DNA of 29,489 nucleotides, from positions 1 through 29,489 of the IMG/VR virus record IMGVR_UViG_3300030012_001890. One strand, given 5' to 3'. Both the position numbers and the translations under genes were made by a program. The DNA is from a virus. The notes beneath the pieces are model-generated. The model searched no databases and was not told where the DNA came from. It saw only the letters and a list, made by a program, of their open reading frames with translations. Positions 7,947 to 15,934 of the stretch are shown here, one piece after another. The stretch's first letter is position 1. Each line of letters begins with the position of its first letter.

Positions 7947-7975
7947 TAATAACAACATAAGGAAACTATAAAATG
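7947..7975 (+). repeat. Leader repeat copy 1 (ribosome-binding cassette)
   Basis: This 29-base unit ends in AAGGAAACTATAAAATG and includes the start codon of the next gene. An exact copy lies 600 bases downstream at 8547-8575, with a near-exact copy (2 mismatches) at 8260-8288. Confidence 0.7.
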
Positions 7976-8245
7976 ATAACAAACTTTAAAGTTAAATCAG
8001 AAAAACAAAATGATGGATTTGAAATAATAAAAATAGAATATGACGAAGTTCAAAAGGGAAACTACGATGACGCAATGAAATTAATAAATGAATATAAAAA
8101 AGAAGGGTTTTTAATTGATTTTGACCATTTATGCCCTATTACAAATATCAGAACAACAATTCTTAACAATGAAAAAATGATTTATAATATAACTGACCAA
8201 GATTTGATTGATGATGATAGCGTAGAAAAAATAGTAAAAGTATAA
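7973..8245 (+). CDS. Unknown early protein, 90 aa
   Basis: The product starts MITNFKVKSEKQNDGFEIIK and is acidic toward the C-terminus (DQDLIDDDSVEKIVKV). I recognise no domain. It is translated from leader repeat copy 1, and it is followed by two further genes that use the same leader. Confidence 0.6.
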   Translation: MITNFKVKSEKQNDGFEIIKIEYDEVQKGNYDDAMKLINEYKKEGFLIDFDHLCPITNIRTTILNNEKMIYNITDQDLIDDDSVEKIVKV

Positions 8246-8259
8246 ATACAAAAATATAA

Positions 8260-8288
8260 TAATAACAAAACAAGGAAACTATAAAATG
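8260..8288 (+). repeat. Leader repeat copy 2 (ribosome-binding cassette)
   Basis: This copy differs from copies 1 and 3 at two positions just upstream of the AAGG core. It supplies the ribosome-binding site and ATG of the gene at 8286. Confidence 0.65.
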
Positions 8289-8549
8289 AATAATAAATTA
8301 AGAGTTGAATATATAACTGATCCTTCTCACGGCTGGATTAAAGTAGAAAAACATATATTTAATTTTTATAAAATCAATAAAAAAGAAATTTCTATTTATT
8401 CTTATCAAGATAGAAATTTTTACTATTTAGAAGAAGATTGCGACGCACATTATCTTATAAATGAATTGAAAAAAAGAAATGTTGATATTGCAATTTATCA
8501 AACTATGGTTGAAGAAACGCATATTAGATCATTAAATAGAATTAATTAA
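8286..8549 (+). CDS. Conserved small protein with HGWIKV and YLEEDCDA motifs, 87 aa
   Basis: The product starts MNNKLRVEYITDPSHGWIKV and contains YSYQDRNFYYLEEDCDAHY near the middle. The combination 'D.SHGW..V', then 'iS.YSY....yYLEEDcDa', is a pattern I associate with a widespread family of small phage and plasmid proteins of unknown function. The protein is probably cytoplasmic and alpha/beta. It is translated from leader repeat copy 2. Confidence 0.75.
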   Translation: MNNKLRVEYITDPSHGWIKVEKHIFNFYKINKKEISIYSYQDRNFYYLEEDCDAHYLINELKKRNVDIAIYQTMVEETHIRSLNRIN

Positions 8550-8575
8550 TAACAACATAAGGAAACTATAAAATG
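8547..8575 (+). repeat. Leader repeat copy 3 (ribosome-binding cassette)
   Basis: This is identical over 29 bases to copy 1 at 7947-7975. It includes AAGGAAAC and the ATG of the gene at 8573. Confidence 0.7.
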
Positions 8576-8752
8576 AAAAAAGACAATGTAAGATTAAAAG
8601 GGTTTTTGAAAGATGATCTTTTGAAAATTCAACTTAATCTAAGTGAAATTAAAGACCAATTAAACAAGTATAATTATAATTCTAAGGAAAAAGAGTTTGA
8701 GAATATAGAAAATATACTAAGTTATTGGTTTCACATTTATAAAAAACTATAA
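8573..8752 (+). CDS. Unknown early protein, 59 aa
   Basis: The product starts MKKDNVRLKGFLKDDLLKIQ and is helical and charged, ending ILSYWFHIYKKL. No family was recognised. It is translated from leader repeat copy 3 and ends four bases before a strong terminator stem. Confidence 0.6.
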   Translation: MKKDNVRLKGFLKDDLLKIQLNLSEIKDQLNKYNYNSKEKEFENIENILSYWFHIYKKL

Positions 8753-14756: not shown

Positions 14757-15050
14757 ATGTACTATAATACAACAAATGAAACAGGAAATTTGCTACAAAC
14801 AAATATGAAACAAGCAAACAATCAAGAACAATTAACATTAGCAGTATTTCAAACATATCCGAATGATAATCTAACTGCTTATGATGTATGGCAATTCTTA
14901 ATTGACAACGAATCAATTAATGAACAAACACCATTAACATCTATTCGTAGATCAATTACTGATTTAACCAATCGTAATAGAATAGTTAAAACAGACAAGA
15001 AAGTATTAGGAAATGCTGGAAGAAAAACATACACTTGGAGATTAAAATAA
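14757..15050 (+). CDS. Small winged-helix-like protein, 97 aa
   Basis: The ATG at 14757 has AAGGAAGG at good distance; an open frame 27 codons upstream has no ribosome-binding site. The product starts MYYNTTNETGNLLQTNMKQA. Later comes LTAYDVWQFLIDNESINEQT and SIRRSITDLTNRNRIVKT, then GRKTYTWRL. This pattern of helix, recognition helix and beta wing fits a winged-helix DNA-binding module, perhaps a regulator or a replication accessory. Its stop overlaps the next gene (TAATG). Confidence 0.6.
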   Translation: MYYNTTNETGNLLQTNMKQANNQEQLTLAVFQTYPNDNLTAYDVWQFLIDNESINEQTPLTSIRRSITDLTNRNRIVKTDKKVLGNAGRKTYTWRLK

Positions 15051-15280
15051 TGGCTTACGAACACAAAGAAAATAAAGGTTCTATTTTTAAGAACGAAAAA
15101 AAAGAAAAAGATACACACCCTGATTATACTGGACAAATCAATGTAGCAGGAACATTGTATAATATATCTGCTTGGATTAATGAAAGTAAAGGTGGAAAGA
15201 AATACTTTGGATTATCTGTATCTATTCCTAAACCAAAAGATGATAAAAAACCATTAAGTCAAGACGACTTACCATTTTAA
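15050..15280 (+). CDS. Mini single-strand-DNA-binding-like protein with acidic tip, 76 aa
   Basis: The start at 15050 overlaps the preceding stop. Residues about 25-57 (DYTGQINVAGTLYNISAWIN then KKYFGLSVS) read as a five-strand beta barrel. They resemble the DUF736-like family of short proteins with 'y.G.i...g..y.lsaW..e...gk.y..l'. The last residues are SQDDLPF, closely matching the acidic DDIPF tip by which bacterial SSB recruits replication proteins. It is less than half the length of typical SSB. I infer ssDNA binding and partner recruitment. It is followed at once by a structured RNA. Confidence 0.65.
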   Translation: MAYEHKENKGSIFKNEKKEKDTHPDYTGQINVAGTLYNISAWINESKGGKKYFGLSVSIPKPKDDKKPLSQDDLPF

Positions 15281-15429
15281 CAAATTAGGGCAACATTTTT
15301 AAACAACAATAAATTATGGCATTTGAAGGAGTGTCGCAGGTAATCAATCCTGTTCACCTTTTTGTTAATGCTCTAAAATAGATTATTGTTTGTAAATACG
15401 GTTGGCTACTGGTTGCCCTATAAAATTTG
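15281..15429 (+). ncRNA. Candidate structured RNA, 149 nt, long nested hairpin
   Basis: Stems nest from outside in. P1a is CAAAT (15281-15285) with ATTTG (15425-15429). P1b is TAGGGCAAC (15286-15294) with GTTGCCCTA (15412-15420), 9 perfect pairs. P2 is AACAATAA (15305-15312) with TTATTGTT (15383-15390). P3 is TTATGGCATT (15314-15323) with AATGCTCTAA (15367-15376), 9 of 10 including a wobble. P4 is AAGG-GTG (15326-15333) with CACCTTT (15355-15361). P5 is CAGG (15337-15340) with CCTG (15349-15352) around an 8-base loop. The outer stem ends next to GAGGAG of the methylase gene. It fits no RNA family I recognise. A cis-regulator or independent small RNA are both possible. Confidence 0.65.
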
Positions 15430-15439
15430 AGGAGAAACA

Positions 15440-15934
15440 ATGATTAACGAAGGAATGTTTACATCAAACAAAGATGATTGGCAAACTCCAAAATGGTTAT
15501 TTGACAAATTAAATAAACATTTCAAATTTAATTTAGATGTATGTGCTAATGATCAAAATGCTTTATGTGATAAGTATTATACAAGTTATGATAGTTGCTT
15601 AGATAAAGATTGGGAAATGTGCAACTTTATGAACCCACCTTACGGTAGGGAAATTTCTAACTTTGTAAAAAAAGCACATGATCAATGGTTAGAAAATGAT
15701 TGCACTACCGTTGCATTGTTACCTGCGAGAACTGATACTAAATGGTTTCACAATTATATTTATGAACCTGCTACTATTATATTTATAAAAGGACGATTAA
15801 AATTTGAAGGTGGAGAAAAATTAGCACCTGCACCTTTTCCAAGTATGATAGTTATATGGTGGGGAATGGAAAAAATTAACGATCAAGACTTTTTAAGTGA
15901 TGAAAAGCTAAAAAAACTTATAAATTCAAAATAA
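15440..15934 (+). CDS. Phage N6-adenine DNA methyltransferase (Dam family)
   Basis: The 164-residue product matches the phage Dam/DNA N-6-adenine methyltransferase family: DDWQTPKWLFDKLNKHFKFN near the N-terminus, LDVCAND, then NFMNPPYGR with the catalytic NPPY at residues 65-68, ALLPARTDTKWF and FIKGRLKF downstream. It transfers a methyl group from S-adenosylmethionine to adenine in DNA. In phages this usually protects the genome from host restriction or adjusts packaging and regulation. No partner restriction enzyme is visible. GAGGAG lies 6 bases before the ATG, right against the base of the RNA hairpin at 15281-15429. It ends the rightward operon and is convergent with the tail operon. 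Confidence 0.88.
   Translation: MINEGMFTSNKDDWQTPKWLFDKLNKHFKFNLDVCANDQNALCDKYYTSYDSCLDKDWEMCNFMNPPYGREISNFVKKAHDQWLENDCTTVALLPARTDTKWFHNYIYEPATIIFIKGRLKFEGGEKLAPAPFPSMIVIWWGMEKINDQDFLSDEKLKKLINSK

Follow-up and report, generated by a model that had tools for sequence, protein, structure and literature searches.

A conserved family of structured RNAs fitted to upstream stop codons in marine tailed phages

Results

We analysed a 29,489-nucleotide stretch of viral DNA (IMG/VR record IMGVR_UViG_3300030012_001890, positions 1 to 29,489; hereafter, the window). On its plus strand, an SSB-like gene (15050-15280; 76 amino acids, C-terminus DDLPF), whose stop codon lies 5 nt 5′ of a structured RNA (15286-15420), is separated by this RNA from a Dam-type N6-adenine methylase gene (15440-15934), the variable downstream gene of this phage. 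A preliminary description of the locus had named both neighbours, correctly in each case: the first belongs to the single-strand DNA-binding protein families phrog_18154/7364 of PHROG (E 9e-12) and also matches annotated phage SSBs by tblastn, and the second matches PF05869 (E 2.8e-32). The spacer TAAAATTTGAGGAGAAACA between the closing helix of the RNA, P1, and the methylase gene (15421-15439, plus strand) holds a Shine-Dalgarno sequence (SD) for the methylase. This SD is absent from most relatives, in which the AUG is found 6-10 nt 3′ of P1.

Relatives were gathered from viral contigs by methylase, RNA-pattern and SSB-alignment searches, giving 80 copies of the RNA (67 distinct sequences) in related phage contigs; L173 and several pattern-search matches were discarded as chance matches to the search pattern. 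Class 1, the window type, is about 135 nt long and carries the hairpin CAGG-UAAYCAAU-CCUG, which is missing from class 2 (about 95-100 nt). Class 3 measures about 115-125 nt, and class 4 (about 118 nt) combines the class 1 core with a different closing helix and a different upstream gene. Further variants were found on contigs L186, L194, L201, L205, L212 and L218. A covariance model (R1), built from 20 class-1-like sequences in a MAFFT alignment, matched the window RNA with 163 bits and recovered full-length members of classes 2, 3 and 4 at E ≤ 0.013 in 0.9 Mb; L104 and L105 were recovered more weakly (E 0.19), and the next unexplained match had an E of 0.46. Judged from sequence, classes 1-4 are one RNA family. 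A single sense copy was present in 26 of the 27 matching contigs. The remaining one, the 51-kb contig IMGVR_UViG_3300030102_002442 (51,435 bases), carries two different copies about 33 kb apart, near one phage genome length, and is possibly two related genomes joined.

The preliminary description had presented 15281-15429 as a 149-nt element of six nested helices whose ordered pairing exceeds chance. The excess is real: the minimum free energy of this segment is -39.8 kcal/mol versus -26.6 ± 3.8 kcal/mol for dinucleotide-preserving shuffles (z -3.5; 1 of 200 shuffles was as good). Its antisense folds less well (-30.9 kcal/mol, z -2.9), and the sense strand had the lower folding energy in 13 of 16 members, the exceptions (a class 2 variant and a class 3 member) having near-equal values with a small difference. 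The extent and layout of the element had to be revised, however. The conserved part is 135 nt (15286-15420), since relatives lack the outermost CAAAU/AUUUG pairing, and the helices, though present, do not all nest but form a three-way junction with a separate 3′ hairpin.

In this junction, P1 closes the structure, P2 is a long irregular arm and P3 is the short 3′ hairpin. P1 is the outer 9-bp stem of the first description, and is exact: TAGGGCAAC (15286-15294) pairs with GTTGCCCTA (15412-15420). The GAGGAG before the methylase gene (15429-15434), which had been placed directly beside this helix, is close to it but does not touch it, beginning 8 nt past P1. Along P2 follow P2a (CAATAA, 15307-15312, with TTATTG, 15383-15388), P2b (GGCATT, 15318-15323, with AATGCT, 15367-15372), an SD-like AAGGAG (15326-15331) and, in classes 1 and 4, the CAGG/CCUG hairpin; all these features lie on the plus strand. 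The AAGGAG has no start codon at a usable distance and is invariant in class 1; AGGA was present in 43 of 43 aligned copies and AGGAG in 35 of them. The apical hairpin, G-CAGG-TAAYCAAT-CCTG-T (15336-15353), is near invariant and restricted to the class 1 and 4 types, the short classes lacking it. P3 (CGG-TTGGCTA-CTG, 15399-15411; RNA loop UUGGCUA) stands directly 5′ of the 3′ strand of P1, and the TGGC of its loop is invariant in classes 1 and 4. The near-invariant core of the RNA is AAGGAGUGUCGCAGGUAAYCAAUCCUGU plus UUGGC. The loop YCAA (15344-15347) could form a kissing interaction with UUGG (15402-15405), and both sites hardly vary. A resemblance of AGGUAACC and CGGUUGG to the 3′ end of 16S rRNA is offered as an idea only.

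Covariation across related phages, proposed as a check in the preliminary description, supported this fold, with compensatory changes exceeding both shuffled and slid controls. A MAFFT alignment that was not fitted to the structure contained 6 pairs with two-sided changes versus 2.1 in shuffles, and had a covariation score of 0.100 versus 0.056 (reached by none of 500 shuffles). In a model-fitted alignment of 52 sequences the score was 0.366 versus 0.111 in shuffles (0 of 500), slid controls scored at most 0.076, and two-sided changes were seen at 22 of 29 pairs; the picture was the same after the last variants had been added, and the total covariation came to 0.37, versus 0.13 in shuffles. 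As a model-fitted alignment is biased towards the structure, we also compared P1 directly, arm by arm. The arms were complementary in every type: TAGGGCAAC/GTTGCCCTA, TGGGGTAAC/GTTACCCCA, TGGGCTAAC/GTTAGCCCA, TGAGGTAG/CTACCTCA, TAAGGAGAC/GTCTCCTTA, GGAGTAGAT/ATCTACTCC and others, including L201, L207 and L212, where the model misplaces P1 and the arms were assigned by eye (CCCTTCCC/GGGAAGGG and TTAACTTCCCTTC/GAAGGGAAGTTAA).

Two-sided changes affect 8 of the 9 pairs of P1, with 99.7-99.8% of cells paired. P2a shows them in 4 of 5 pairs and is swapped between subclasses for other complementary pairs (CAATA/TATTG, TAAAC/GTTTA, CACAA/TTGTG). P2b is absent from some relatives (82-83% of cells paired) and has two-sided changes at 6 of 6 pairs, and the P3 stem at 3 of 3 (its outer pair is C-G in 18 sequences, G-C in 15 and U-A in 5). 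The near-invariant apical hairpin offers one compensatory change, C-G to U-A in L212. G-U pairs are conserved in P2b, P2d and P3, which points to the sense RNA strand.

The RNA had been described as an undescribed, non-coding structured RNA, and covariation, database searches and reading frames all agreed with this. As suggested there, we searched Rfam (release 15), which returned no match for the window at gathering scores and none for 15200-15500 at E ≤ 10; searches with related loci gave only sub-threshold chance matches. A 21-codon open reading frame without an SD is present at 15316-15381, as noted at the outset. We looked for an uninterrupted conserved frame in its place and rejected a small protein: 10 of 30 relatives have no frame from start to core, several of them through an in-frame TAA just before GGA (for example, L065, L067, L068 and L072), and the core base that varies most falls on the second position of a codon (ATC, ACC, AAC). 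Other identities were rejected too. ARAGORN found no tRNA or tmRNA, the GCAGG-loop-CCTGT hairpin being merely T-arm-like. P1 is followed by an A-rich TAAAAT, not by the U tract of an intrinsic terminator. The RYYYAAC/GTTRRRY core of an integron attC site is not fitted by GGGCAAC/GTTGCCC, and the P1 sequence varies freely.

Searches outside the viral contigs gave little. By blastn, phage isolates yielded only short partial matches (E 0.04 at best) and no match to the RNA. Phage C72C1 has a relative of the SSB, but no copy of the RNA occurs in its complete genome. The core was found in 0 of 385 and 0 of 369 bacterial genomes sampled from two classes (754 in total). A GTDB search with the SSB returned distant matches only, and two tail-region proteins had no relatives among phage isolates.

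What stays constant is how tightly the RNA is fitted to the upstream stop codon. P1 starts within -8 to +10 nt of that codon in 66 of the 80 copies, and at +5 in 41 copies; among the remaining 14, several are at the end of a contig or have an extra hairpin separating the stop codon from P1. In class 4 and in L218, P1 overlaps the stop codon itself. This fit is found with at least five unrelated upstream genes, usually the SSB-like gene but also a Dam gene (L194), a 68-amino-acid gene (class 4), a MAKSHP-type gene (L201) and a gene ending in KKAKA (L212). Downstream, at least nine families occur, including a gene of 48-53 amino acids, a C5 methylase, Dam types, other DNA methylases and several small genes. 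In L039, L087, L186, L199, L217 and L221 no gene follows directly, and the full RNA is kept. In five of these (L087, L039, L199, L217 and L221) the RNA is followed by a shared operon end, AATAACGCACTATTT, as if a slot for a cargo gene were empty. The suggestion that the RNA is a leader of the methylase did not survive this comparison, since members of this one RNA family stand before genes of at least nine unrelated families, or before none; a riboswitch or leader of any one gene or pathway was rejected on the same ground, as the class of the downstream gene is not constant.

We then compared the start codons of genes lying directly behind the RNA at distinct loci: 33 had no SD and 8 had one. 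Nearly all SD-less starts, across at least nine gene families, lie 6-10 nt after P1; the eight starts with an SD are farther off, seven of them at 18-21 nt from P1 and the last at 54 nt. At other locations, the C5 methylase and MIKF families do carry SDs. Within the window, an SD-like tetramer precedes 28 of the 38 listed open reading frames, and most of the rest overlap or abut the preceding gene, whereas the majority of window genes that have a gap in front of them do carry an SD; this background was taken from window genes and same-family comparisons, the genome-wide background being noisy from spurious open reading frames. In L218 the RNA has AGGAA in place of AGGAG, yet the downstream gene has no SD, so the tie between AGGAG and SD-less genes is not clean.

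Other hairpins were noted in the same regions. A second conserved hairpin, E2 (GGCAAGATGAAATTCACGATAAGCGAAAGC...CTCTCTTGCC; no Rfam match), occurs in L014 (4906-4972), L021, L027, L071, L088 and L191-L194; in several phages it lies between the RNA and the start codon, and it is also found after a methylase gene (L193). The gene behind E2 lacks an SD in 7 of the 9 loci. More hairpins stand right after SSB-like genes in L104, L054 and L192 (AGGGTGGA...TCCACCCT), L168 (CTGCCAGG...), L188 (GGTGTCAAG...) and L212 (AAGGTAGCTAG...CTAGCTACCTT), followed by the RNA or by another gene; structured elements seem to accumulate behind the SSB gene. In L004 (4930-5000), L006 and L030, Dam or C5 methylase genes have another kind of hairpin in front of them, GGGGCAACTACT...AGTAGTTGTCCC, which may overlap a short open reading frame with a signal-peptide-like start. 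Elsewhere in the window (7947-8584), near-identical 38-nt leaders, TAATAACAACATAAGGAAACTATAAAATG, stand before three small genes (7973, 8286 and 8573).

Discussion

The above results leave us nearly certain that these are members of a real, conserved and unlisted family of sense-strand structured RNAs in marine tailed phages. As to function, we tentatively favour, from sequence comparison, a cis-acting translational bridge from the upstream to the downstream gene. The RNA would be the whole intergenic segment in the polycistronic mRNA of an early (replication) operon, and P1 would draw the upstream stop codon (here, that of the SSB gene) near the next start codon. Ribosomes finishing the upstream gene could then start the next one without an SD of its own or, alternatively, 30S subunits held by the AGGA(G) inside the RNA might do so.

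The appeal of a bridge lies in distance. Reinitiation after termination is nearly lost past a gap of about 20 nt (PMC10666635), and so the linear gap of 100-150 nt at these loci is too long for ordinary termination-reinitiation. A fold running from about 5 nt after the stop codon to 6-10 nt before the AUG would cut the gap of about 100-150 nt to about 11-15 nt, bringing it into reinitiation range. At most loci, then, an SD-less start is close to the upstream stop codon only if the folded RNA counts as the bridge. RNA structure is, moreover, known to shape translational coupling (PMC12548453). Against a bridge, the next gene has its own SD in the window and in about ten other loci. Genes also remain SD-less in 7 of the 9 loci with E2 interposed, so that an SD inside this RNA is not strictly needed. 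Serving the downstream gene cannot be the sole function either, as the full RNA persists where no gene follows. Also, the invariant core implies a specific binding partner, which bridging alone leaves unexplained. Gene-less copies and invariant core thus argue that the RNA also acts by itself.

The main rival, which we hold to be only somewhat less likely than the bridge, goes further along this line: the RNA would be a small RNA that acts independently. Transcribed as part of the early operon, it would be excised at the foot of P1 and would bind the ribosome, another RNA or a host protein. An independent small RNA and an RNase III site were both raised in the preliminary description, and RNase III processing may likewise occur. 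The downstream gene would possibly keep a leader of 6-10 nt and be translated like a near-leaderless mRNA, which would account for the two modes of start-codon spacing too. The core and the UUGGC loop remain almost invariant while the adjoining proteins change, the RNA is retained where no gene comes after it, and it is present, gene-like, in a single copy per contig; all three points suit a free RNA. However, such an RNA does not account for the nearly constant contact of P1 with the upstream stop codon, and the overlap of P1 with that codon in class 4 and L218 would be odd.

It is improbable, in our view, that the RNA is a cis-acting sensor that responds in the manner of a riboswitch or through a bound phage protein, for instance the SSB, and regulates translation of either neighbouring gene by opening and closing P1. 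Its architecture, with variable helices round an invariant core and a three-way junction, is aptamer-like, and SSB-like genes adjoin it in most loci. But the genes on either side change freely around a persisting RNA, making a single regulated gene unlikely.

A DNA element, that is, a single-strand hairpin for replication or priming as proposed for STAXI near SSB genes, is very unlikely. The replication-module site beside SSB genes and the single copy per genome would fit. However, orientation is always sense, the conserved G-U pairs of P2b, P2d and P3 would be A-C mismatches on the opposite strand, and it is the sense strand that has the lower folding energy in most members. The variable genes behind the RNA and its perfect terminal inverted repeats might suggest a MITE-like mobile insertion or a site at which cassettes are exchanged by recombination, but either is hardly credible, as the RNA is not dispersed in multiple copies, keeps a fixed position behind stop codons, and has repeats that covary to different sequences between phages around an invariant core.

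The proposed bridge has partial parallels. In the T4 gene 38 and gene 60 initiation and bypass elements, RNA structure spares a phage ribosome part of its path, the likeness that we propose here; these are single-gene cases and are not homologous, whereas the present RNA is seen with many genes. Calicivirus TURBS and ribosome-tethering sites share a motif complementary to rRNA by the stop/start junction, but TURBS is eukaryotic and lies upstream of the stop codon, whereas the SD-like motif described here is enclosed in a folded RNA between genes. PMC12548453 discusses calicivirus coupling. Termination-reinitiation coupling (PMC12548453; PMC10666635) likewise involves an SD-less downstream gene close to the preceding stop codon, but needs overlaps or gaps under about 20 nt, whereas a conserved RNA of about 100-150 nt occupies the gap here. 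By location, the nearest known RNA is STAXI (Weinberg 2010, PMC2864571), also structured, found by comparative genomics and situated near SSB and other DNA-handling genes; it is a tandem-repeated pseudoknot, in contrast to the single three-way junction described here, which has other conserved sequences and no Rfam match. The marine metagenome and cyanophage RNAs manA, wcaG, PhotoRC-II and Ocean-V (PMC2864571) are likewise structured and come mostly from marine phages or metagenomes. Families listed in that paper that have Rfam models do not match the RNA; Ocean-VI, which has no Rfam number in its table, falls outside this comparison and may be identical. Our literature search found no paper describing the RNA. 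A large set of candidate virus RNAs has reportedly been published and could contain it.

A bolder form of the favoured explanation, which we consider unlikely as it stands, likens the RNA to an intergenic ribosome entry site, of which it would be the phage counterpart: compactly folded, it would seize the ribosome at the stop codon and start any SD-less gene inserted behind it.

With this work, marine phages, in which few RNA elements are understood, gain an unlisted RNA family with good support. If the bridge is true, a folded RNA can stand in for a Shine-Dalgarno sequence, and phages could accept new genes at one site. If instead the RNA works by itself, phages have a conserved RNA whose invariant core ought to be matched by a host partner that can be defined.
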